In this document: in pieces, positions 1,799 to 22,042 of the stretch
How positions within the stretch are numbered: the first letter of the stretch is position 1
How the letters are laid out: every line of letters begins with the position of its first letter
IMG/VR virus record: IMGVR_UViG_3300005606_000001
Location: 1-50,229 of that record
From: a virus
DNA length: 50,229 nucleotides
Reading direction: 5' to 3' (one strand)
The notes under the pieces: model-generated
The model's database searches: none
What the model was told of the DNA's origin: nothing
Seen by the model: only the letters and a program-made list of their open reading frames with translations
Position numbers and translations under genes: made by a program

Positions 1799-2005
1799 TT
1801 ATCTTGCTTTGATTGCTGCTGAGACTTGCTCAAACAACTTATCATCTGCTTGTGTTTTAGTCATTTTGACTGCTTTACCGATGATGACTAAACAGATGTC
1901 GATGAGTTTATCACCAAGTTCTGCATCATCAGGGATTTTAGCGATTGCTTTCTCTATAATACTCTTCGCAAAGGGTAAGAGAAAACTTGAAACTGAACCA
2001 ATCAT
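1799..2005 (-). CDS. small hypothetical protein, 68 aa
   Basis: A 68-residue protein beginning MIGSVSSFLLPFAKSIIEKA. It has an amphipathic first helix and a hydrophobic helix (LIDICLVIIGKAV, about residues 34-46), and may associate with membrane. Its own terminator follows at 1772-1795. It looks like a small conserved marine myovirus protein, but I know no function. The reading frame, start and terminator are clear. Confidence 0.6.
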   Translation of the reverse strand: MIGSVSSFLLPFAKSIIEKAIAKIPDDAELGDKLIDICLVIIGKAVKMTKTQADDKLFEQVSAAIKAR

Positions 2006-14389: not shown

Positions 14390-14622
14390 AATGCTTTTTT
14401 GTAATTAGTGATTGTATCTTTTGATGGATCTACTATAGTCATAATATTATCAGATGTCAAGAAACAATCTCTCTGATCTGTATGTAATGGAAATGGTGTG
14501 AACTTATCACCATCTATTTTCATACATCCTGTTATAAGATAAGATGGTTCTTCATCTAATTCTGTGACCTCTCCAATCAAGTAATTAAGATTTCTGAGTA
14601 TCACCAGTTTGATTGGTGCCAT
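14386..14622 (-). CDS. small Sm/Lsm-like protein, 78 aa
   Basis: A 78-residue protein with a beta-rich pattern similar to Sm folds: KLVILRNLNYLIGEVTEL (strand-turn-strand), EPSYLITGCMKI and a C-terminal LTSDNIMTIVDPS strand. It overlaps the next Sm-like gene upstream by 38 bp in another frame and shares a GTGA overlap with gp43. RNA binding or oligomerisation is possible but inferred from fold pattern only. The family is otherwise unknown to me. Confidence 0.65.
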   Translation of the reverse strand: MAPIKLVILRNLNYLIGEVTELDEEPSYLITGCMKIDGDKFTPFPLHTDQRDCFLTSDNIMTIVDPSKDTITNYKKAL

Positions 14623-14950
14623 TGTCTACCTCTGATAGTTTTACCCATTTAGATTCTACCTCTGGGTGTGGATTGTAAATTGTTTGAACCTGACTTAACT
14701 GTACTAGACAACGTTTGTCTGCTGACATAGGTATCCAAGGAAACAGTTGTAGATTTAGATCATTGATCTTCTGCGGTTCATCAGTAGTGCCTTCTTCAAA
14801 AAGCATTTCCGCTGTTGCTTCTATTATAACCTGATATGGGTTAGTTAGAAAGTATCCAATAGGAGCATACACTTCTTTATTTGGGTACGCTTCTTGAACA
14901 TCAGCGATTATATCTTCCCCGTTGGCGACTCTTACGATCTTGACGGTCAT
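14585..14950 (-). CDS. Sm/Lsm-like protein, 121 aa
   Basis: The start at ATG 14950 (MTVKIVRVANGEDIIADV) is chosen because GGAGAAAGAG precedes it; the longer frame to 15004 has no support. KIVRVANGEDIIADVQEAY has the shape of an Sm1 motif, and KRCLVQLSQVQTIYNP resembles the Sm2 strand with a 40-residue insertion between. I recall that an Sm-like protein of putative cyanophage origin from a marine metagenome has a published crystal structure; this looks like the same class. It overlaps both neighbours, just ahead of gp43. A role as RNA chaperone or translational regulator is inference. Confidence 0.7.
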   Translation of the reverse strand: MTVKIVRVANGEDIIADVQEAYPNKEVYAPIGYFLTNPYQVIIEATAEMLFEEGTTDEPQKINDLNLQLFPWIPMSADKRCLVQLSQVQTIYNPHPEVESKWVKLSEVDNGTNQTGDTQKS

Positions 14951-15086
14951 ACTCTTTCTCCATAAGTGATTGGTAAACACCTTTGACCATTTCGCCAAAG
15001 GCACGACGTGATGAAATATTTCTTTCGTCTGCTAAGAGACGAACATAATAAAGAAAATCCTCGACATCTTGAGTAGGGATGTCCAT
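14901..15086 (-). CDS. small hypothetical protein, 61 aa, first gene of replication operon
   Basis: The start at ATG 15086 is supported by AAGGAG 9 bp upstream; the longer frame to 15143 lacks this. The protein begins MDIPTQDVEDFLYYVRLL, is helical and ends in a basic tail (DRQDRKSRQRGRYNR), suggesting nucleic-acid binding. It overlaps the Sm-like gene by 50 bp. The terminator at 15156-15186 lies upstream, so this gene opens the gp43-uvsX-gp41 unit. I do not recognise the family. Confidence 0.6.
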   Translation of the reverse strand: MDIPTQDVEDFLYYVRLLADERNISSRRAFGEMVKGVYQSLMEKEYDRQDRKSRQRGRYNR

Positions 15087-15155
15087 ATTGACATTCTCCT
15101 TCTCTTTAATATGCCGAGGTGTGCAGTTCACATAGTAGTTCATAAATTTAGTTGA

Positions 15156-15186
15156 ATAAAAAAGAGACCCGATGGGTGGGTCTCTT
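15156..15186 (-). terminator. intrinsic terminator after the 15.2 kb secreted protein gene
   Basis: On the minus strand a perfect 9-bp stem (AAGAGACCC / GGGTCTCTT) with a 7-nt loop is followed by TTTTATTC. It closes the transcription unit of the 15211-15582 gene. Confidence 0.88.
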
Positions 15187-15210
15187 CAGTTGTGTATTAT
15201 GTATAAAGGT

Positions 15211-15582
15211 TTAGAAAGTGTACTTAAGTCCTGCTTTCCCTGCCCAGTCTACGTCATCAACATTAGTTGCTGCGGATAACTCACCATAAACTCCTACACT
15301 ATCAGTAAGTGTCTTACCACCACCGATGTAACCGATTAGTTCAGTGTCACCGAACTCGTCAGCAGTCTCTGTATGAGTAACTGTAGGACCACCTGATACA
15401 TACCAGTCAATACCATTAGGTGTTGTACCTTCGTATCCAAGTTGGAATTCCCAAGTTCCTGATGAATATGCTCCATCTGGATATGAACCACTTGCTTCTA
15501 CATTAACGTAAGGACCTGCAAACGCAGCACCAGAGAATAGAAGAGGGGTTGCAGCAAGTGCTGCGATTGTTTTTTTGATCAT
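15211..15582 (-). CDS. exported beta-rich protein with signal peptide, outer-membrane-like
   Basis: A 123-residue protein from ATG 15582. MIKKTIAALAATPLLFSGAAFA is a clear Sec signal peptide with AFA cleavage at about residue 22. The mature part has alternating aromatic/polar strands (YVNVEASGSY, WEFQLGYEG, DWYVSGGP) and ends in AGLKYTF. A terminal Phe after alternating residues is typical of outer-membrane beta-barrels. It has its own sigma70 promoter, structured leader and terminator. No Shine-Dalgarno sequence is evident. The likely location is host periplasm or outer membrane. A longer frame from 15669 would bury the signal and is rejected. Confidence 0.8.
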   Translation of the reverse strand: MIKKTIAALAATPLLFSGAAFAGPYVNVEASGSYPDGAYSSGTWEFQLGYEGTTPNGIDWYVSGGPTVTHTETADEFGDTELIGYIGGGKTLTDSVGVYGELSAATNVDDVDWAGKAGLKYTF

Positions 15583-15603
15583 TTTTGTTTTATAGTATCT
15601 CGC

Positions 15604-15691
15604 AAGAAAAAACCCTGCGGATGTTAGACTACCTCGACTAAGGTGTCTTTTGAATCTACGCAGGGGCACGATCTTTCGATCCCTTTGTATA
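15604..15691 (-). ncRNA. candidate structured leader RNA / attenuator or short terminated RNA
   Basis: The minus-strand transcript from the sigma70 promoter would fold into a GATC-GAAA-GATC tetraloop hairpin (15670-15681), then an outer stem CCCTGCG/CGCAGGG (15659-15665 with 15613-15619). This encloses an inner stem made of GAC/GTC and ACCT/AGGT with one bulge (627-634 and 641-647 of the 15 kb block). Six U residues follow immediately (15607-15612). Such a stem plus U-tract can terminate transcription, giving an approximately 85-nt RNA or attenuating the exported-protein gene. The structure was read by eye and its function is untested. Confidence 0.55.
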
Positions 15692-15698
15692 ATTATAT

Positions 15699-15727
15699 AG
15701 TATATCTTAATACATTAAGATTGTCAA
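15699..15727 (-). promoter_or_regulatory. strong sigma70-type promoter with palindromic spacer
   Basis: The minus strand has TTGACA (15727-15722), a 17-bp spacer and TATACT (15704-15699). The spacer and its edge contain an 18-bp palindrome, ATCTTAAT-GT-ATTAAGAT (15704-15721), a possible operator lying between the two boxes. It would drive the structured leader and the exported-protein gene early, using host RNA polymerase. Confidence 0.75.
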
Positions 15728-15738
15728 GTGTTTTTAAT

Positions 15739-16182
15739 TTAGGATATATCAAAAACTTTTCTCTTCTGATGTTCTGGTACAATCTTGTTCAAATTTATTG
15801 ATAGCAGACCGTTCTTGTATTGAACTTCTCCAATCTCTACATCATCAGCAAGGTTAAAAGTCTGAGTAAATTCCCTAGATGCGAGTCCACGGTGCACGTG
15901 TGTGCGTGGTTCTTCATCTTCTTTAGTTTTTTTAGATGCAATAGTTAGAACGTTTTGTTCTGTAGATACTTCTATGTCATCTTTATCCCATCCTGCAAGT
16001 GCCATCTCAATCTCCCAGTTTTCTTCTGAGTTTTTGATGATGTTATATGGTGGATAGGATCTGTTAGATCCGTTTGTGACATCCAATCTCTTGAGAGTTG
16101 GTCCTAATCCGATGCTTGTTTTCTCTATAGCATCCATTAGAAAGTCAAGGTCATTTGCTGTGTACCTAGATAGCGTACCCAT
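15739..16182 (-). CDS. hsp20: Hsp20-family small heat shock protein
   Basis: A 147-residue protein from ATG 16182, which has AAGGAGAAC upstream; the longer frame to 16233 is rejected. The alpha-crystallin core spans about residues 40-140: YPPYNIIKNSEENWEIEMALAG, DDIEVSTEQNVLTIASKK, then RGLASREFTQTFNLADDV and YKNGLLSINLNK. The C-terminal IxI-like tail is weak. Hsp20 genes are common in T4-like cyanophages and may help scaffold or head folding or host proteostasis. It is transcribed away from the plus-strand secreted operon. Confidence 0.9.
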   Translation of the reverse strand: MGTLSRYTANDLDFLMDAIEKTSIGLGPTLKRLDVTNGSNRSYPPYNIIKNSEENWEIEMALAGWDKDDIEVSTEQNVLTIASKKTKEDEEPRTHVHRGLASREFTQTFNLADDVEIGEVQYKNGLLSINLNKIVPEHQKRKVFDIS

Positions 16183-16236
16183 AATAGTTCTCCTTTTTAA
16201 GCGAGTGTGAATAGTGTCCCTGTAAGGCGACAATAC

Positions 16237-16243
16237 TATTTAA
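16237..16243 (-). promoter_or_regulatory. weak late-type box (TTAAATA) before hsp20
   Basis: TTAAATA on the minus strand, 55 bp upstream of the hsp20 ATG. It differs by one base from the CTAAATA boxes seen elsewhere, so it is only a candidate. Confidence 0.3.
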
Positions 16244-16316
16244 CACTATATGTATTGCTATGACTAGGGGGATAACCATAAGTAAATATACGGGTGTCGC
16301 GAAAGCATTTATTTGT

Positions 16317-16323
16317 CTAAATA
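16317..16323 (+). promoter_or_regulatory. CTAAATA late-type box for the plus-strand secreted operon
   Basis: CTAAATA lies 31 bp upstream of ATG 16354 on the plus strand. It is the only late-type box found pointing right, and it sits in the 171-bp divergent spacer shared with hsp20. Confidence 0.6.
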
Positions 16324-16353
16324 GAGCCAGTATAGTCTCTAAATTTAAAGACA

Positions 16354-16863
16354 ATGAAGAAACTCGCTTTCGTTATTGTTATGGGAATATTGGGTGCACC
16401 TCTATCAGCGAGGGCAGATTTAACACATAAGATTCAATCTAGTATCCAGTTAAATGTGAATGCAGCAGCGACTCAAGTAAGTCGTACTCCAAACGTTTAC
16501 AGTGTATCAGGTAACAACGTTACAACAACTGGTACAGATTCAAGTGGTTCATCATACAACACCATAGGTGCTATGACAATCACTGCTTCCACAGGGGTCG
16601 GAGCAATACCTTCTATCGGTGCAGTTCAGGCAACAGCAGGTGAAAGTTTCAGTTTTACTCAATCTTGGAATCAAGGTGATGCCATATCAACAACGTTGAC
16701 CACAGGTGCTGTATCAGCGTTCGGTGATCAGACATCCACAGCAGCAGGAACAAAAGATACTTTAGCAGGTACCATTGATTCTTCTGGTACAGTTACAGTA
16801 ACAGCAGGTGGAGCAGGTACAAGTGCCCTAGGACAATTTACTACTGAATTAACCATCCAATAA
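16354..16863 (+). CDS. exported Ser/Thr/Ala-rich protein 1 of plus-strand operon
   Basis: A 169-residue protein. MKKLAFVIVMGILGAPLSARA is a Sec signal peptide with ARA|D cleavage near residue 21. The mature part starts DLTHKIQSSIQLNV and is poor in charge and rich in Ser, Thr, Gly and Ala with beta-strand periodicity (YSVSGNNVTTTG, ESFSFTQSW, TLAGTIDSSGTVTV). There is no cysteine in the mature part. I recall homologues next to the following two genes in other T4-like cyanophages, all without function. Secretion into the periplasm, or assembly on virion or cell surface, is inferred from signal and composition. Confidence 0.75.
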   Translation: MKKLAFVIVMGILGAPLSARADLTHKIQSSIQLNVNAAATQVSRTPNVYSVSGNNVTTTGTDSSGSSYNTIGAMTITASTGVGAIPSIGAVQATAGESFSFTQSWNQGDAISTTLTTGAVSAFGDQTSTAAGTKDTLAGTIDSSGTVTVTAGGAGTSALGQFTTELTIQ

Positions 16864-16877
16864 GTAACTATATAATA

Positions 16878-17321
16878 ATGAAACGTGTATGGTACATATG
16901 TGGCATTGCAACGTTGACTATGGGCGTAAACCCAGTCATAGCAGTGCCTGTGGTGCCAAATTTTTCTCAGGGATCGATGACTAGCCACACGGAAACGACT
17001 TCCACCGTGACGGAGACCATAAATTCTATGGATTACGCGACGGGTTGGCAATATTCGGTCAGTGGTACAAATGTATCACAAGATGGAACAACCATATCAC
17101 CCGCTATAGGGAATGGTTCATCTAATACTATTAATGGAGTGACTTCGCAATGGCAAGACTTAGACCACGCAAACAAACCAAATTACACGATAACAACTCC
17201 AGGAGCAGCGTTCCAGTTCACGGAGACGTATCGTGCCCCAGGTCTAATAAATCATACAGTAATACAAAGAGAAACAACCATAACTTCGGTCACAGATACG
17301 CAAAGTATATTTCAACAATAA
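16878..17321 (+). CDS. exported beta-rich protein 2 of plus-strand operon
   Basis: A 147-residue protein. MKRVWYICGIATLTMGVNPVIA is a signal peptide with cleavage likely after VIA (about residue 22). The mature part starts VPVVPNFSQGSMTSHTETT and continues with alternating Thr/Ser strands (TVTETINSMDY, WQYSVSGTNV, AAFQFTETYR, TSVTDTQSIFQQ). It follows gene 1 by 14 bp. No Shine-Dalgarno is obvious. The shared pattern of a strand-rich mature part and an aromatic AFQFTETY/SFSFTQSW strand suggests that proteins 1 and 2 are related or co-assemble. Confidence 0.72.
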   Translation: MKRVWYICGIATLTMGVNPVIAVPVVPNFSQGSMTSHTETTSTVTETINSMDYATGWQYSVSGTNVSQDGTTISPAIGNGSSNTINGVTSQWQDLDHANKPNYTITTPGAAFQFTETYRAPGLINHTVIQRETTITSVTDTQSIFQQ

Positions 17322-18031
17322 TAGCAACAGTTCTCACTGCTAACGCTCTACCTATGCGTGCAGAGACAGTTGGTGGTGTGTCAGCAACAGCATCGCCAAT
17401 AGCAAACAGTTCTGGAAGTGTCACAAATCAAGCTATACAGGTTTTACAGGGTCCGTATATAACTAATACTTATGGAAATGGCATACAATGTCAAGGTCCA
17501 ACGTTAAACTTCACACCATATGTTACAGGGAGTACATCTATACAACGTCCCTACGAAGATCTGTGGTTTGATCAAGTGTACGATATGCGTGACTTGACTG
17601 GTACTACAGATGCAAATGGAAATCCCACAGGAGATGGTGCACCAGATAATCCAGGGCAAGTGTTATATGAAATTCCAGTAAGAACAGGTCAGAAAGATAA
17701 TCATTCACTGTCCATAGGTTTTAGTGCAACGTGGTCTAAACCATTAGACAAGACACTACAAAAATTATGTAAAGAAGCAGCAGCAAGTCAAATAGCATAT
17801 TCAGAACAACTTACTGCTAATAAAAGATTAGACTTTGAGATCGCGAGATTGAAAAATTGTGGTGAACTGATGAAGGCAGGAATAATGTTCCATAAAAACT
17901 CACCATACTATGCTGTATGTGCCGATGTGGTTCTAGTGAACCCACCTGGAGTTCTTCCAAACCACTCTCATACAATACCTAGTACAGATGCTTCATTATT
18001 AAAAGATGTATCTATTGGAACAAATCCTTAA
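17309..18031 (+). CDS. exported protein 3 of plus-strand operon, non-ATG start likely
   Basis: The frame is open from ATG 17150, but residues before 17300 look like a shadow of gene 2. A signal peptide (STIIATVLTANALPMRA|ETVGG) begins around 17309-17320, where only ATT or ATA codons exist. The first later ATG (17354) would destroy the signal. I place the start at ATT 17309, overlapping the gene 2 stop, as inference. The mature part contains NSSGSVTNQAIQVLQGPY, IQCQGPTLNFTPYV and SLSIGFSATWSKPLD, a coiled helix region (QIAYSEQLTANKRLDFEIAR) and cysteines in KNCGELM and YAVCADVV. The 3' end overlaps the convergent gene by 20 bp. The family is found in cyanophages without function. Confidence 0.65.
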   Translation: MSTIIATVLTANALPMRAETVGGVSATASPIANSSGSVTNQAIQVLQGPYITNTYGNGIQCQGPTLNFTPYVTGSTSIQRPYEDLWFDQVYDMRDLTGTTDANGNPTGDGAPDNPGQVLYEIPVRTGQKDNHSLSIGFSATWSKPLDKTLQKLCKEAAASQIAYSEQLTANKRLDFEIARLKNCGELMKAGIMFHKNSPYYAVCADVVLVNPPGVLPNHSHTIPSTDASLLKDVSIGTNP

Positions 18032-18707
18032 AAGGACATTTAGGACGATCACCAAACATTAACTGTGCTGACAGATGTGGTATGAGGTTCTTAAGATTAA
18101 CTCTCTTTTCAAACATCCTAATCTGTTCAAGTGTAGGAGTTGACTTGACCATATCAAATGTCTTGGTAAGATCATCCTCCTTATAAAATGCAAACCTAAA
18201 CAGTGGATCACCACGTTTAATTACTACTGGTTTACTCTTATCAACAACGTCAAATGCAAACGTTGCTAGTCTACTCCAATCAGATAGATTCCACCATCCA
18301 CCAACCAATGTGAGATTGTTTTGATAAGAAGTAAGACCACAATCTTTTTGTTCAACCCAAACATTTGGTGTGTCTGTCCAGATATAAAACTTCATCAGGT
18401 GTAATTGGAATGTACCAGTCTTCTGCCAATTCTGAATAGGTTCGAGATACTCACGTATGTTAGTATTGGGTGAGTCAATAGTCTCGTTATCGAAATCTAT
18501 ATTCAAAGTAACATCTCGTGGTGAGAATGCTGTAAACTCTCTCTTTGCCTTATGTGCCCAAGCAGGACATTTATGATAGGGTAAAGAAGGACTCTGATTA
18601 CTATAAAATCGTTCTGGTTCTATACCAACTCCATCAACATTTAATGGTGAATCAAGTGCATCAGGACCTGCATTACCTTCAAATGGATAATAATATATCT
18701 TTATCAT
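18012..18707 (-). CDS. hypothetical protein, 231 aa, last gene of membrane operon
   Basis: A 231-residue soluble-looking protein starting MIKIYYYPFEGNAGPDALDSP. It is rich in aromatics (SLPYHKCPAWAHK, FYIWTDTPNVWVEQ, LVGGWWNLSDW) with a helical C-terminus (TPTLEQIRMFEKRVNLKN). There is no signal peptide or membrane span. Its ATG overlaps the preceding stop (ATGA), so it belongs to the 21.4-18.0 kb unit, and its 3' end overlaps the convergent secreted-protein gene. I do not recognise a function. Confidence 0.65.
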   Translation of the reverse strand: MIKIYYYPFEGNAGPDALDSPLNVDGVGIEPERFYSNQSPSLPYHKCPAWAHKAKREFTAFSPRDVTLNIDFDNETIDSPNTNIREYLEPIQNWQKTGTFQLHLMKFYIWTDTPNVWVEQKDCGLTSYQNNLTLVGGWWNLSDWSRLATFAFDVVDKSKPVVIKRGDPLFRFAFYKEDDLTKTFDMVKSTPTLEQIRMFEKRVNLKNLIPHLSAQLMFGDRPKCPFKDLFQ

Positions 18708-19471
18708 TTTTTCTTTTTCTTCTTAGGACGTTTGAAGGCAGGTAATCCTTTCTTCTCACGATACTTATTAGTCTGTATCTCATTACGACTTAACTTAGGT
18801 GGTTCTTTACCGAACTTCTTTTGTATAGTCGTAGTGAGTTTTTTTATTGCAGGTTTTATAATTCTCAATAATAATGGTGTTGCAGCAGCAGATGCTGTAG
18901 CAACAACTGCTATCGATGCTGTTACAGATACTTGATTTGTAGATGGTAAAAATTGTTCGATTGTTGTAGTGTCCTCGTATAATACTACACATTGACCTTC
19001 TTTTATCTCGTGACCTATAACTCTCTCTTCTCCATTCTGAGTTAGATCACCAACTCTAGGTTGATTAGGTGCAGGACATTCTATTTCTTTTTCTGTAGGA
19101 GGTATGTTTGGTGGTGTTACTTCTGGTGTATCTATTTCTGGAGGTGGTGCTATATCTGGAACCACGGTCTCCTGTTGAAAGATTAATTCATCTTCTCTGT
19201 AATCTATAGTCTCAAAAGCAGGTACTCCTGCATCACAATATGTGAGGGTTTTATCAGGATCATCCTCAGTAAGATTTTTATTTTTTTGATTATTGAGTTC
19301 GTGTGCTTTAACGCAACCTGGAATATTGACAATAGGAGTTCCAATGTCAACTGTTACAGGAACGCTAGGACCAAAAGACCACGCGGGTTTTCCAACCCAC
19401 GGTGGTACATTTACATTATTGGTGTTTGGTATGTAGAGATCCGAAATAATAATATTTGGAACTTCTTCCAT
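18704..19471 (-). CDS. Pro-rich, probably membrane-anchored protein, 255 aa
   Basis: Residues 1-60 are beta-rich with tryptophans (VPPWVGKPAWSFGPS). Residues about 110-140 are proline-rich (VPDIAPPPEIDTPEV, PPNIPPTEKEI). Residues about 180-205 form a hydrophobic span (VSVTASIAVVATASAAATPLL), followed by a strongly basic tail ending FKRPKKKKKK. The layout suggests one membrane span with a basic cytoplasmic tail and an exposed Pro-rich arm. Three cysteines are present (GCVKAH, TYCDAG, IECPAPN). The start overlaps the upstream stop (TAATG). I know it as a cyanophage conserved type without function. Confidence 0.65.
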   Translation of the reverse strand: MEEVPNIIISDLYIPNTNNVNVPPWVGKPAWSFGPSVPVTVDIGTPIVNIPGCVKAHELNNQKNKNLTEDDPDKTLTYCDAGVPAFETIDYREDELIFQQETVVPDIAPPPEIDTPEVTPPNIPPTEKEIECPAPNQPRVGDLTQNGEERVIGHEIKEGQCVVLYEDTTTIEQFLPSTNQVSVTASIAVVATASAAATPLLLRIIKPAIKKLTTTIQKKFGKEPPKLSRNEIQTNKYREKKGLPAFKRPKKKKKK

Positions 19472-19692
19472 TACAGTCCTAAGTTAGGTCCAGTAGGTAA
19501 TACAGGTCCAGTTATATCAGGTAATGAATTTTGGATTGCACCACCTACAGAAGGCATAACTGATTCCATCACTTTACCTTTGATGTCTTCGATAATCGCA
19601 TCCTTGCGTATGAATACATACCCAACAGTACCAACAACGGTGAGAGAGATAACACCACTTGCAATAGCGATTCCATTAATGATCTTTTGCAT
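19471..19692 (-). CDS. small membrane-anchored protein, 73 aa
   Basis: The start is either ATG 19692 (MQKIINGIAIASG) or ATG 19707; I list the shorter. An N-terminal span (IAIASGVISLTVVGTVGYVFI) is followed by a charged stretch and a Gly/Pro-rich tail (PDITGPVLPTGPNLGL). This is a typical anchor-in, tail-out small protein. It overlaps the upstream gene and is coupled to the next by TAATG. An ATAAATA sequence at 19740-19746 lies upstream inside the preceding gene. Confidence 0.6.
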   Translation of the reverse strand: MQKIINGIAIASGVISLTVVGTVGYVFIRKDAIIEDIKGKVMESVMPSVGGAIQNSLPDITGPVLPTGPNLGL

Positions 19693-19999
19693 TGTAATTA
19701 ATTTCAAAATTGTTTAAACCCTTCACTTCTGAAGGTGAACTATTTATCACTCCAAACTGTTCACGTTCTTGAGCATCCCAATCTTCTTTAATTTTTTCTG
19801 CCTGTCTATCCACGTCTTCCATTGTGTTCTCTATCTTCTGCTCTATCCATTCTTCTTTAAGATATGCTACAAGACCTAGTAAAAGATGATTGATAGGAAA
19901 CCTTTGTTTCTTTGCCCATCTTTCCATCTTGGCATACCAAGGATCTACTCCTTTCCCAAATTGTTTTTCAAATTTAAGTAACGTCTTTTTCTTTTCCAT
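19676..19999 (-). CDS. hypothetical protein, 107 aa, charged with short hydrophobic segment
   Basis: The start at ATG 19999 (MEKKKTLLKFEKQFGKG) is preferred over 20035. It is rich in Lys, Glu and Trp (PWYAKMERWAKKQR), has a short hydrophobic helix (HLLLGLVAYL), then a charged helix (EEWIEQKIENTMEDVDRQAEKIKEDW) and an Asn-rich end. It overlaps both neighbouring genes. It is probably a peripheral membrane or coiled-coil protein; no family recognised. Confidence 0.55.
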   Translation of the reverse strand: MEKKKTLLKFEKQFGKGVDPWYAKMERWAKKQRFPINHLLLGLVAYLKEEWIEQKIENTMEDVDRQAEKIKEDWDAQEREQFGVINSSPSEVKGLNNFEINYNAKDH

Positions 20000-20265
20000 C
20001 TCGGTAAATAAAATACTACGAAAGAACCAATCCAAAAAATTGCTAGTAATGATATGTGTAGTAGTCTGTTAGAGTTTACTATTAGACCAAGTGTTACAAG
20101 TCCAATCCAAGTGTAATCTAACGTACCGTGAAGACGATACCACACATTGCTTCCTAATTTGTTAATGACTCTTTCTCTTTGTTTTGCAAACCACGGTGAC
20201 ACGTGACGCATCATCACGAATCCTTCGTTGAAGAACATAACAAAAAAACCAATCCAGAATATCAT
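19945..20265 (-). CDS. small multi-pass membrane protein, 106 aa
   Basis: Three hydrophobic spans: IFWIGFFVMFFNEGFVMM (1-19), YTWIGLVTLGLIV (about 50-63) and LLHISLLAIFWIGSFVVFY (about 68-86), separated by basic loops (FAKQRERVINKLGS, PRWKRKRRY). It is translated from ATG 20265, overlapping the previous stop. Size and topology would fit a holin-like or membrane-remodelling protein, but that is only one possibility. Confidence 0.6.
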   Translation of the reverse strand: MIFWIGFFVMFFNEGFVMMRHVSPWFAKQRERVINKLGSNVWYRLHGTLDYTWIGLVTLGLIVNSNRLLHISLLAIFWIGSFVVFYLPRWKRKRRYLNLKNNLGKE

Positions 20266-20471
20266 TTGATTTTATCTACTAATTCAGATTCATCGATTGC
20301 TTCTCGAATGATTCTCTTTAATTGTTTTGCTTGCTTCTTATTAATAGATCCAAGTGATGTATCTATCTTTACCTTTACCCAGTAAAGACCTATAAGAACA
20401 AGTGTAAAAGGAACTGCATCTGCCCAAGAGATTTCATTCCACGCTTCTACTACGTTTAATACTGAAAACAT
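20262..20471 (-). CDS. small single-span membrane protein, 69 aa
   Basis: A 69-residue protein with one span (AVPFTLVLIGLYWVKVKI, about residues 19-36) and a basic amphipathic C-terminus (KKQAKQLKRIIREAIDE). It overlaps the next gene by 4 bp (ATGA) in the late membrane operon. No family recognised. Confidence 0.55.
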   Translation of the reverse strand: MFSVLNVVEAWNEISWADAVPFTLVLIGLYWVKVKIDTSLGSINKKQAKQLKRIIREAIDESELVDKIK

Positions 20472-20480
20472 AATTTAATC

Positions 20481-21023
20481 CTAACAATTTTTATTTAGGT
20501 CTTCTGCCATATTACCACCAATCTCTGCACCTTGATCGCCACCAAACATCGCTACCCAACCTGCTGCAACCCAACCCACAAAGGGAATACTACTGAGAGT
20601 AGGAGCAGCACTAGCACCAATGCTTGTACCAACCAGTCTTCCAGTTCCTTTTGCAGCACCAACCGCTTCTATACACGCTACGTTCTTGTCTGTGACAGTA
20701 GAAGCACCTTGACTTGCTTGAGATTTTTGTATATGTACATCTCCATCCATTGTATATTCTTCTACTATCTCTGTTTTTTCATTTGCTAATCCTAGGAAAC
20801 CACCTTTCTCATCAAGTTTAGTTGTCTTATACATTGTCTTTGGATCATTTCCAACGTAACTCATCTTGTATCCATCTTTATCTGCGGATACAACGTATGA
20901 TGTATAAGGAGTTATAACAGGTGGATGTATGACAGGATATGTTTTTCTAGATGCTATCATACCAATCATCCCTATATGGGATACACCTAATAACGTACCT
21001 AAACCTAGACTAAACCATTTCAT
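20481..21023 (-). CDS. membrane-anchored protein with Gly-rich C-terminal segment, 180 aa
   Basis: Residues 1-25 (MKWFSLGLGTLLGVSHIGMIG) form an N-terminal anchor without a lipobox cysteine. The middle is beta-rich (SYVVSADKDGYKMSYVG). Residues about 115-165 are small-residue-rich (GAAKGTGRLVGTSIGASAAP, FVGWVAAGWVAMFGG), resembling glycine-zipper membrane segments. Cysteines near residue 117 and at the C-terminus could pair. The ATG overlaps the upstream stop (ATGA). Location at the host membrane or in the tail is inference. Confidence 0.6.
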   Translation of the reverse strand: MKWFSLGLGTLLGVSHIGMIGMIASRKTYPVIHPPVITPYTSYVVSADKDGYKMSYVGNDPKTMYKTTKLDEKGGFLGLANEKTEIVEEYTMDGDVHIQKSQASQGASTVTDKNVACIEAVGAAKGTGRLVGTSIGASAAPTLSSIPFVGWVAAGWVAMFGGDQGAEIGGNMAEDLNKNC

Positions 21024-21418
21024 TTTGAATCAGGAGTAATTTTTATAGGTGCTGACTCTATTCTTATAGTCTGTGCAGGAGCAGTCTCTGATGCCTTGGC
21101 AATAAGAAACTCCATATCTTTTTTAGATATGTTTGCATCTCCACTACCATCACCTGATTTCTTTTTCTTACCCCCAGTCTGGACACCAAAAGTTGCCAAA
21201 GTTCCTGTGAAAACCGAAGCTATGAAAGTTGGATCGATCTTTTCTCCTGCATCATAACCTGGTATTTTAACGTAGTTCAAAGTTAAAATTCCTGCGGACC
21301 ACACGAGAACGATCACTCTTATCAATGTCGCTAAGTACATCAGTTGCTCTTCTTTATCTTCTGCAACTTCTTTAAGTTTACCTATAGGACCTTTAGGTTT
21401 CTCTTTTACTTCTGCCAT
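21020..21418 (-). CDS. membrane protein, 132 aa, first gene of late membrane operon
   Basis: A 132-residue protein. A charged N-terminus (MAEVKEKPKGPIGKLKEVA) is followed by hydrophobic segments YLATLIRVIVLVWSAGILTL (about 28-48) and IASVFTGTLATFGVQTG (about 66-82), then a Lys/Gly/Ser linker and a charged C-terminus. Two spans with both ends cytoplasmic is a holin-like layout, but I cannot assign that. I recognise it as a conserved T4-like cyanophage protein. A CTAAATA box lies 23 bp upstream. Confidence 0.68.
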   Translation of the reverse strand: MAEVKEKPKGPIGKLKEVAEDKEEQLMYLATLIRVIVLVWSAGILTLNYVKIPGYDAGEKIDPTFIASVFTGTLATFGVQTGGKKKKSGDGSGDANISKKDMEFLIAKASETAPAQTIRIESAPIKITPDSK

Positions 21419-21439
21419 TACAATTTAGGGTAACTAACC

Positions 21440-21610
21440 CTATTTAGACACCAAAAATTTTCTAGTTTTCTTTAGATGTTTCCATTCAGTTCTTATTCTT
21501 TCGTATGCGACTTCTTGTGTTATCTTACCTGACATTTCCATTGCACACACATACTCAATCCTTTTAGCAAAATCCCTTACTACCTCTCCTAGTTCATCTG
21601 TCTCGTACAA
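21440..21610 (-). CDS. small protein, 56 aa, TTG start abutting regA stop
   Basis: Begins TTG TAC GAG directly after the regA TAA, giving (M)YETDELGEVVRDFAKRIEY and ending TRKFLVSK. The frame is a single well-formed charged helical protein filling the gap between regA and the late box. No ATG precedes the conserved-looking part, and the first in-frame ATG is at codon 24. Coupled re-initiation at TTG is therefore likely. Function unknown. Confidence 0.6.
   Translation of the reverse strand: MYETDELGEVVRDFAKRIEYVCAMEMSGKITQEVAYERIRTEWKHLKKTRKFLVSK
21441..21447 (-). promoter_or_regulatory. CTAAATA late-type box of the membrane-protein operon
   Basis: CTAAATA on the minus strand, 23 bp before ATG 21418, overlapping the TAG of the preceding small gene. 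It would start the 21418-18012 unit late in infection. Confidence 0.58.
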
Positions 21611-22042
21611 TTAAGATTCCTCCGTTACTTTCTTTTTACCGATGTTATATTTAGATTCTAAGACCCACTCCTTCTTATCTCTAAAAGAAATAACCTTGAT
21701 TTGATTTAAAGGTGCAATATCTTCGACTCTATTCTCATCTACCATTACAACTAAACCCCAATCAGACAACAGTTTTGTAATACGATTCCTACGTTGTACA
21801 TCATTAGTTGTTAGATTAGAATGCTTACCATCTAAAGCAAATAGTTCTTTGAAGTGAACAATATAATACTTACCTTTCTTATGTAATATATGGCAAGACT
21901 GAAATAGTTTTTTCTCTTTACGAGAAGCAACTCCAATTCTTGTTAGTGTCTCTCTTACCTTGAGGAAATCATCAGGTTGACGTAAAGTCACCTCTACCAT
22001 TTGCTCAGGATCCCACGAGATTTCTACATTCTCGTCAGTCAT
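21611..22042 (-). CDS. regA: RegA translational repressor
   Basis: A 143-residue protein (T4: 122). The T4 RegA core is plain: VEVTLRQPDDFLKVRETLTR, FQSCHILHKKGKYYIVHFKE, LLSDWGLVVMVDEN, KVISFRDKKEWVLESKYNIG. RegA binds AU-rich initiation regions of early phage mRNAs, including clamp and clamp-loader messages, and represses their translation. It lies next to gp62 with an ATGA overlap, as in T4, where regA follows gp44 and gp62. Confidence 0.94.
   Translation of the reverse strand: MTDENVEISWDPEQMVEVTLRQPDDFLKVRETLTRIGVASRKEKKLFQSCHILHKKGKYYIVHFKELFALDGKHSNLTTNDVQRRNRITKLLSDWGLVVMVDENRVEDIAPLNQIKVISFRDKKEWVLESKYNIGKKKVTEES

Follow-up and report, generated by a model that had tools for sequence, protein, structure and literature searches.

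Lysis of Prochlorococcus and Synechococcus by cyanophages moves much fixed carbon in the ocean. Phage T7 has its holin gene between the tail-fiber and small terminase genes; its spanin genes overlap each other and are located between the two terminase genes. Here we analyze a cassette of exported-protein genes (referred to as S1, S2, and S3) and facing membrane-protein genes (g1, g2, g6, and g7 of a minus-strand series g1 to g8) in a T4-like cyanophage of marine cyanobacteria, and suggest it as a possible means by which these viruses exit the host. The DNA analyzed is a viral contig of 50,229 bases (IMG/VR record IMGVR_UViG_3300005606_000001), the whole of which is referred to as the window.

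The closest described systems are the phage spanins and a cyanophage gene cluster. In the available sections of their survey, Kongari et al. (2018; PMC6139136) found overlapped two-component spanins in 228 of 677 phages, and listed 20 phages of Prochlorococcus and Synechococcus as spanin-less, T7-like cyanophages of the kind discussed below among them, with the guess that the outer membrane of these hosts might be fragile. They also pointed out that overlapped genes and wrong starts hide spanin genes, and that a type I membrane protein or an outer membrane protein (OMP) could serve in their place. The available text of Sullivan et al. (2010; PMC3037559) describes a “cluster of five hypothetical proteins” (T4-GC 218, 219, 234, 235, and 237), often accompanied by a plasmid stability gene that was proposed to give mobility; S-PM2 was the one phage without the cluster, and no function is given for it in that text.

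The Cassette and Its Distribution

The gene order in the window is gp43 DNA polymerase, DUF680/OMP, hsp20, S1, S2, S3, then the facing genes g8, g7, g6, g5, g4, g3, g2, g1, and finally regA. The closest annotated records at the DNA level are P-SSM3, P-RSM3, and P-SSM4, with ~11% of a 10-kb query matched at ~79% identity. A preliminary description of this region, made from the sequence alone, had proposed a late, envelope-directed block of open reading frames (ORFs), all of which are present where it placed them. It was largely right, and the block is also co-inherited, minus one gene (DUF680/OMP, which is outside the late set) and plus one overlap that it had missed (S2/S3, out of frame, 172 nt). 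The features of the cassette are as follows.

16317..16323, plus strand: late-type box CTAAATA, 30 nt ahead of the S1 start codon, at a conserved position
16354..16863, plus strand: S1, exported protein, phrog_564; T4-GC 237 by position in P-SSM4 and S-SM1
16878..17321, plus strand: S2, exported protein, DUF6322 (PF19847), phrog_650; T4-GC 236 by position
17136..17139, plus strand: Shine-Dalgarno (SD)-like GGAG within S2, upstream of the S3 start, in conserved GGA/GTG codons
17150..18031, plus strand: S3, exported protein, phrog_848/1755, with four invariant Cys; T4-GC 235 by position; start within S2, -1 frame
17150..17321, plus strand: S2/S3 dual-coding overlap of 172 nt, with the S3 frame free of stops
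17303..17365, plus strand: hydrophobic signal segment of S3 with the predicted cleavage region, starting near the S2 stop (family alignment; helix 46-64 of a low-confidence model)
18704..19471, minus strand: g7, phrog_570, with a Pro-rich N-terminal part, a single C-terminal transmembrane (TM)-like segment, and a Lys-rich tail; T4-GC 234 by position
19471..19671, minus strand: g6, phrog_568 “plasmid stability”, small protein of 66 residues with one TM-like segment; T4-GC 414 by position
20481..21023, minus strand: g2, phrog_605, with an N-terminal anchor and a C-terminal Gly-rich hydrophobic stretch; T4-GC 219 by position
21020..21418, minus strand: g1, DUF6450 (PF20048, phrog_2714; 113.8 bits, cut-off 25), holin-like small membrane protein; T4-GC 218 by position
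21441..21447, minus strand: late-type box CTAAATA, 22 nt ahead of the g1 start, at a conserved position

By profile, window g1, g2, g7, S3, S1, and g6 correspond to SSM1_163-169 and PSSM4_133-140, the GenBank notes of which carry the T4-GC numbers, and by profile and order most of the block is the cluster of Sullivan et al. (2010). When 50,697 phage records were searched by tblastn (one query per gene, E 1e-5), matches were found in 428 records for S3, 405 for S2, 404 for g7, 438 for g1, and 365 for g2, and the names of the matched records start with Synechococcus, Cyanophage, Prochlorococcus, or Marine, except for one “uncultured” and one Tiamatvirus. The preliminary description had expected the genes to co-occur in related genomes; in 13 hand-picked whole records, DUF6450 (over the cut-off) and S2 are indeed concordant, with both present in nine and neither in four (S-CREM2, S-SZBM1, the S-PM2 deletion mutant, and Syn5). 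S-CREM2 has a DUF6450 match below the cut-off (16.9 vs. 25 bits). S3 was scanned in eight of the 13 records, and is present in five and absent from three.

Three phage types carry the cassette. In T4-type loci, as profile searches showed, S1, S2, and S3 face g7, which is followed by g6 and g2 in variable order and then by g1; P-SSM4 differs in carrying g7 on the S strand. MED4-184-type loci have g1, S1, S2, S3 facing g7, g6, and DUF7936, and in six of them a terminase pair is located upstream of g1 on the other strand (~700 nt off in the three loci listed). The T7-like order is DUF7936 (in some cases), a protein with one TM segment (referred to as the podoviral 1-TM protein), g1 (DUF6450), S2/S3, TerS, and TerL; g1 was found in 68 of 80 T7-like loci, and the remaining 12 have at most 44 bases of contig upstream. 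The genes g1 (DUF6450), g2, g6, and g7 facing S1-S2-S3 form a conserved cyanophage cassette, which keeps much of its membership across T4-like, MED4-184-type, and T7-like phages.

One scan of bacterial and archaeal genome contigs returned 16 S3 relatives, several of them on contigs or metagenome-assembled genomes that we judge to be viral-looking, and no clear host counterpart. An S3 homolog was seen on a 188-kb, cyanophage-sized contig (L259) of the Nonlabens xiamenensis 1Q3 isolate assembly, possibly a contaminating or misbinned phage.

A Probable S3 Start within S2

The first ~57 codons of S3, as far as the signal segment, are dual-coding with S2, which S3 overlaps in the -1 frame. The overlap is 166-178 nt long in T4-type, 139 nt in MED4-184-type, and mostly 208 nt in T7-like phages. 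The loci are related and their counts not independent; coding tests were done on representatives with <93% identity, after 36 of 77 T4-type, 35 of 76 MED4-184-type, and 17 of 73 podovirus-type usable loci had been dropped as redundant. Across the 138 representatives of the three phage types, there are no S3-frame stops in the overlap, compared to about three in each after synonymous shuffling.

All but one of the 83 T4-type loci have the S3 ATG at -166, -172, or -178 relative to the end of S2; the exception (L038) is cut by the contig edge. With no filter for the ATG, the S3 frame is stop-free in 83/83, as checked across the final 166 nt of S2 or back to where the contig begins. When the synonymous S2 codons of the 41 T4-type representatives were shuffled, each sequence had on average 3.05 stops, and the mean chance of an open frame was 0.046; here the filter required an overlapping ATG in an open frame, and the lack of stops in these 41 is partly by construction. 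The wobble base that makes the ATG (before TGG) is A in 41/41 representatives (expected 0.44), and the codons forming GGAGTG at 9-14 nt upstream of the ATG are likewise conserved (GGA in 34/41, expected 0.36; GTG in 40/41, expected 0.41). Third-base diversity at four-fold sites is 0.50 in the overlap, down from 0.59, and 0.24 over the five columns of the SD/ATG stretch. The encoded extension is more positively charged than stop-free shuffles, with a mean net charge of +9.0 vs. +4.3 (mean z 1.65).

The T4-type and podovirus-type loci are the best 80 matches to queries with the extension, which favors loci with an extension, while the MED4-184-type query was without it, making that set the fairest for the overlap test. 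In the MED4-184-type set, the S3 ATG is at -139 in 77 of the 79 loci having both genes, and the overlap is open in 41/41 representatives against an expected chance of 0.04; the fixed A is uninformative here (expected 0.85). For T7-like phages, S2 and S3 overlap in the same frame in all 76 loci having both genes, with the overlap open in 56/56 representatives (chance 0.056) and an ATG at -208 in 47 of them; P-SSP7 is an exception, with an open overlap of 124 nt and a GTG. These coding statistics show selection on the S2/S3 overlap to stay open, and S3 translation probably starts at the internal codon. For S3 of the MED4-184-type and T7-like phages, sequence identity is 25-33%.

The overlap is visible in some GenBank annotations: S3 starts within S2 in Syn9, S-SM1, and P-GSP1, and after S2 in P-SSM4 and P-SSP7. 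Among the matches listed, 55 of 56 isolates align to S3 from residue 11 or earlier, the exception being RB11-B. Given the conserved internal start, the entries of P-SSM4 and P-SSP7, beginning after S2, probably miss the signal peptide, which is one way that such genes go unnoticed.

Three further observations were made on these genes. In most representatives of the podovirus type (L171-L250), nearly the whole of S2 can be read in the -1 frame without a stop, and a second ATG follows the S2 ATG by 8 nt. MED4-184 itself (L004 5922-5966) departs from its 78 relatives in the S2/S3 frame relation, as an indel or sequencing error in the overlap would cause. A small protein of phrog_402/2738 is found on its own in the window (1799-2005, minus strand) and in Syn5 (gp48), and matches the S3 C-terminus in P-GSP1, as in a fusion (L253 8151-8867 and L251 6666-6836).

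Export Signals, Membrane Segments, and Late-Type Boxes

A segment was called TM- or signal-like if its 17-residue Kyte-Doolittle hydropathy was ≥1.6. Four Sec signals had been claimed for the region. Those of the DUF680/OMP protein (residues 6-22), S1 (3-19), and S2 (10-26) exceed this threshold, and that of S3 falls below it in the window (1.37 vs. 1.6) and is visible in the family alignment, as a hydrophobic segment at about residues 46-70 preceded by a basic extension of ~50 residues. Past the extension and this segment, S3 has a conserved P..A cleavage-like site and a mature part with C114, C207, C237, and C257, which are invariant across 51 aligned sequences and fit an oxidizing compartment. 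S1 is a distant paralog of S2; in MED4-184 it matches both phrog_564 and phrog_650.

The facing minus-strand operon (18704-21418) is membrane-directed as proposed, with TM-like segments in six of its seven proteins (g1, g2, g3, g4, g6, and g7, and none in g5); an eighth gene, g8 (18012-18707), extends it and encodes no TM-like segment. Most members of the block have a signal or TM segment, namely nine of 13 proteins, compared to three of 44 other ORFs hand-picked from the minus-strand ORFs of ≥100 amino acids (aa) in the window (Fisher p 1.4e-5). Taken singly, just three segments (DUF680/OMP, S2, and g1) exceed 95% of the shuffles of their own protein. Hydropathy gave one or two TM-like segments in 185 of 190 DUF6450 homologs, and the g1 homolog of P-SSP7 carries the GenBank note “2 transmembrane regions predicted by TMHMM”; the GenBank notes of three successive P-SSP7 genes read one TM, two TM, and signal peptide. 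All 159 homologous ORFs of g7 longer than 150 aa have a TM-like segment and a positive tail. A weak match (E 9.1e-4, P-SSP10) connects the podoviral 1-TM protein with the TM segment and tail of g7, and a Pro-rich N-terminal part and a positive tail are common to both. Neither Pfam nor NCBIfam gave a match for g6, and its “plasmid stability” label may be wrong, in which case the basis of the mobility idea of 2010 falls away.

The late-type CTAAATA box reported ahead of both operons (S1 and g1) is present, and its position is conserved across loci. The 7-mer as such is not enriched in the window (11 matches vs. 11 for a reversed control). TAAATA occurs within 100 nt upstream of S1 in 58 of 69 loci (reversed control 17/69), most often between -30 and -36, less often around -46 to -49 or at -71, and the preceding base is not always C; it occurs within 80 nt upstream of g1 in 34 of 50 loci (reversed control 11/50), clustered at -27/-28. 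That the S genes are the only plus-strand genes in 50 kb is consistent with the data and unproven: of the 45 other plus-strand ORFs of ≥60 aa, nine were checked, and these gave no PHROG match.

None of ten block proteins searched matched NCBIfam, and the families are unassigned in Pfam, PHROGs, and NCBIfam except for phrog_568, in line with the preliminary view that no function is known; the DUF680/OMP gene differs in having some literature. AlphaFold2 models of S2 (mean pLDDT 67.1, pTM 0.33, 31-sequence alignment) and S3 (mean pLDDT 58.8, pTM 0.29, 51-sequence alignment) were too poor for interpretation. Foldseek searches of the PDB with these models gave no significant match (best E 0.04 for S2 and 1.8 for S3). 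Against viral models, S3 had 15 matches at E ≤ 0.001, the named ones being S3-like cyanophage or marine phage proteins and several being nameless. By sequence, the PDB returned nothing for S3 and one match to a ribosomal protein for S2 (E 0.067). In the literature searched, no mention was found of DUF6450, DUF6322, or DUF7936, nor of PSSP7_043-045, PSSM4_137/138, or “T4-GC 235”, and among the matches listed for cyanophage gene overlaps there was nothing on the S2/S3 pair.

A Possible Lysis Module

We tentatively interpret the cassette as a lipoprotein-free outer-membrane exit (lysis) module, to which we give somewhat less than an even chance. DUF6450 (g1) would be a holin-like protein that permeabilizes the inner membrane. 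The exported S1-S3 would work alongside g7, either within the periplasm or at the outer membrane. The g7 protein would be anchored by its C-terminal TM segment, with the Lys-rich tail presumably in the cytoplasm, and all of these proteins would disrupt the outer membrane as spanins do elsewhere, but with no lipoprotein among them. Signal peptide cleavage would also take off the basic S3 extension, and the overlap would then mainly serve to tie S3 translation to that of S2.

Three functions had been guessed at for the block (an envelope structure or surface assembly, lysis, and superinfection exclusion), of which lysis fits best, given the gene neighborhood in T7-like cyanophages; the late-type boxes are somewhat against superinfection exclusion, and an envelope structure or surface assembly is still conceivable. 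In the T7-like cyanophages, a two-TM protein and an overlapping exported pair precede the small terminase gene, an order close to that of the T7 lysis genes as outlined above. This order, together with the presence of such phages in the spanin-less list of Kongari et al. (2018), is why we prefer lysis. Further support comes from the late boxes, the concordance of DUF6450 and S2, and the terminase genes near g1 in MED4-184-type loci. S2 and S3 are an overlapped gene pair in all three phage types, as is common among two-component spanins, and by hydropathy g1 is a small membrane protein within the 1-3 TM segments of holins. Compared to an i-spanin, which has an N-terminal TM segment and a periplasmic helical or coiled-coil domain, S3 gives mixed signs: it has the hydrophobic segment and a predicted 42-residue helix (201-242, low-confidence model), but also a conserved signal-peptidase-like site, and the T7-like S3 proteins lack seven residues within the helix stretch. 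The g7 and podoviral 1-TM proteins look like the type allowed by Kongari et al. (2018) in the available sections.

Several observations weigh against a lysis role. S-SZBM1, S-CREM2, and the S-PM2 record (a spontaneous deletion mutant) are without S2 and S3, and Syn5 is without S2, and all of these phages must lyse their hosts. Of the 80 MED4-184-type loci, 30 gave no g1, including 15 with at least 300 upstream bases, and by hydropathy 67 of 190 DUF6450 homologs have a single TM-like segment, as does window g1, and five have none. No endolysin was recognized beside the cassette among ten proteins checked, only some of which are neighbors. A lipobox was found in 0/31 S2, 1/51 S3, 0/157 S1, and 0/45 g2 sequences, and a lipobox-like motif in 66 of 168 g7 sequences has no strongly hydrophobic stretch ahead of it (mean Kyte-Doolittle 0.45); by this o-spanin lipoprotein test the cassette is not a spanin. 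There is no N-terminal signal in g7, and an N-out topology is guessed from its charge. Structure prediction was uninformative, and the S2 and S3 models had no significant fold match in the PDB.

With more doubt, we consider it possible that marine cyanophages share one lipoprotein-free outer-membrane breaching module that passes between T4-like, T7-like, and MED4-184-type phages, S2 and S3 having been dual-encoded out of frame since before the versions in these phage types diverged to at most a third amino-acid identity. The cassette in any case offers specific candidate genes for cyanophage outer-membrane passage, which are carried by hundreds of isolates and allow simple knock-outs as tests.

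Alternative Explanations

Instead of opening the cell, the exported proteins might shield it, by coating or blocking the outer surface or a receptor late in infection, either as superinfection exclusion or so that released virions do not re-adsorb to debris. Ser/Thr-rich exported proteins and an S3 with paired Cys would suit such a role, and the genes are common in T4-like cyanophages yet missing from some, as an accessory function would be. Superinfection exclusion, however, usually needs early expression, contrary to the late-type boxes, and a shield leaves the DUF6450/terminase neighborhood of the podoviruses without explanation, making it unlikely in our view. We regard as similarly improbable that the proteins are virion-associated or tail-fiber-linked and pass through the periplasm, or form a phage-made fiber on the infected cell. 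In P-SSP7 and P-SSP10 the cassette does come after tail-fiber genes or a large late gene at the equivalent location, two very long strands are present in the low-confidence S2 model, and a homolog of the separate DUF680/OMP gene is reported from S-SZBM1 virions (see below), but signal peptides would draw the proteins away from virion assembly in the cytoplasm. The virion lists of S-CREM2 and S-SZBM1 say nothing on S1-S3, because both phages are without these genes. GenBank product names were tried as a proxy for virion mass spectrometry and rejected, as SSM1_017 (T4-GC 15), reported as detected, is still named “hypothetical protein”. Less likely still is a role in maintaining the host envelope or nutrient uptake during a long infection: phoA/pstS genes and a DUF680 gene are nearby in S-SM1, but no similarity to transporters was found in Pfam or NCBIfam, and S3 has no clear host counterpart among its 16 relatives.

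A different kind of alternative, to which we likewise give a low probability, is that the internal S3 start is unused, S3 being made by -1 frameshifting from S2 or from a start near the S2 stop, and the open upstream frame having another cause. S3 does sit in the -1 frame of S2, and 21 of 83 T4-type loci have an ATG between -4 and +40 relative to the S2 end (43 of 83 have any ATG, GTG, or TTG near it). The podovirus frame is open upstream of the -208 ATG in 53 of 56 representatives, where the chance of this is 0.44, and that ATG is missing in nine of the 56; the P-SSP7 overlap is just 124 nt with a GTG, the frame relation differs in MED4-184, and GenBank begins S3 after S2 in P-SSM4 and P-SSP7. 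On the other side, GenBank starts S3 within S2 in Syn9, S-SM1, and P-GSP1, no start codon of any kind is near the S2 stop in 40 of the 83 loci, and the ATG position is fixed in all but the one T4-type locus at a contig edge, with the invariant wobble A and the conserved SD-like GGA/GTG codons described above.

The DUF680/OMP Gene and Other Features of the Region

The remaining features of the region are listed below.

15161..15187, minus strand: terminator-like hairpin 3' of the DUF680/OMP gene, with a 10-pair stem and a T-rich tail
15211..15582, minus strand: DUF680/PhCOG173 outer-membrane beta-barrel-like protein of 123 aa with a Sec signal (PF24653 Phage_OMP, phrog_417)
15583..15688, minus strand: structured leader of the DUF680/OMP mRNA, a covarying hairpin with a GUCG-containing loop (fold z, alignment, pair types by RNAfold)
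15699..15727, minus strand: sigma70-type promoter TTGACA-17-TATACT of the DUF680/OMP gene, 11/12 matches
18012..18707, minus strand: g8, phrog_17480, without a TM-like segment, outside the common cassette
19676..19999, minus strand: g5, phrog_6464, without a TM-like segment (profile match, hydropathy)
19945..20265, minus strand: g4, phrog_31495, with two TM-like segments (profile match, hydropathy)
20262..20471, minus strand: g3, phrog_9048, with one TM-like segment (profile match, hydropathy)

The DUF680/OMP protein is a clear member of PF24653 Phage_OMP (130.7 bits, cut-off 27), and its homologs SSZBM1_90 (S-SZBM1) and SSM1_172 (S-SM1) are named DUF680. According to the available parts of the respective papers, SSZBM1_90 is in the virion list of S-SZBM1 (PMC9146016), and the S-TIM4 gene of the same name was called nonstructural and acquired 13 mutations when evolved on Synechococcus WH8102 (PMC6224464).

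The preliminary description had counted this gene in the envelope-directed block, but it is not part of the late operon pair: it has its own sigma70-type promoter and terminator, and no late box within 220 nt. The promoter is the best sigma70-type match in 14500-21800, where the total of 21 is not above that of shuffles (24.1), and terminator-like sites in the region number seven, with 4.4 expected. Of the 26 DUF680 loci listed, 22 have a sigma70-type site of 10-12 matches, at -144 to -154 in 19 of these. In eight of the 26, [CT]TAAATA is present at -121 to -126, touching the -10 hexamer, and it is absent from the window and 17 others; some late input may occur at those eight loci, which counts against the view that the gene has no late box.

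The leader is conserved in the alignment of loci, and the stretch 15583-15702 folds better than its shuffles (z -2.65). When each hairpin was folded alone with RNAfold, the pairs varied on both sides between loci, each of the nine pairs nearest the loop showing 3 to 5 pair types; these counts were made with no structural alignment and include two of the 16 distinct sequences (L016 and L017) that were cut at the wrong GTCG. RNAalifold found no covariation or compensatory pairs in the MAFFT alignment of the leader, which we think comes from misalignment of the variable hairpin. With its early-type promoter, terminator, and covarying leader, the DUF680/OMP gene is a transcription unit of its own and is not to be counted with the late block.

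Rfam gave no match at gathering anywhere in the window, and weak matches to the DUF680 leader (E 0.54 or worse) were rejected as chance. Matches to the manA RNA and PhotoRC-II RNA were seen in related viral contigs (L024 5882-6068 and L018 1297-1391, both minus strand).

Comparison with Known Systems

The gene cluster itself was already known from Sullivan et al. (2010). The dual-coding S3 start, the spread over three phage types, and the lysis-like neighborhood were, as far as searched, not found in print. The window has the same families as that cluster and the same convergent layout as in S-SM1 and Syn9, with the g2/g6 order swapped and g3, g4, g5, and g8 inserted; export, the S2/S3 overlap, and the T7-like and MED4-184-type copies are not mentioned in the available text of that paper. 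The DUF680/OMP protein itself is no different from other DUF680/PhCOG173 (PF24653) proteins, to which the window gene adds its promoter and structured leader.

Like phage holins, DUF6450 is small and has one or two TM segments and charged ends; it matches no named holin family in Pfam, PHROGs, or NCBIfam, and is a candidate for this role. The g7 and podoviral 1-TM proteins share a C-terminal TM segment with the unimolecular spanin (T1 gp11), but are without its N-terminal lipoprotein signal. In contrast to two-component spanins (the lambda Rz/Rz1 class), the cassette has no lipoprotein, S2 and S3 both look cleaved and secreted, and S2 is predicted with low confidence to be mostly beta. What the two have in common is a pair of exported products with an out-of-frame overlap, encoded beside a possible holin gene and likely expressed late.

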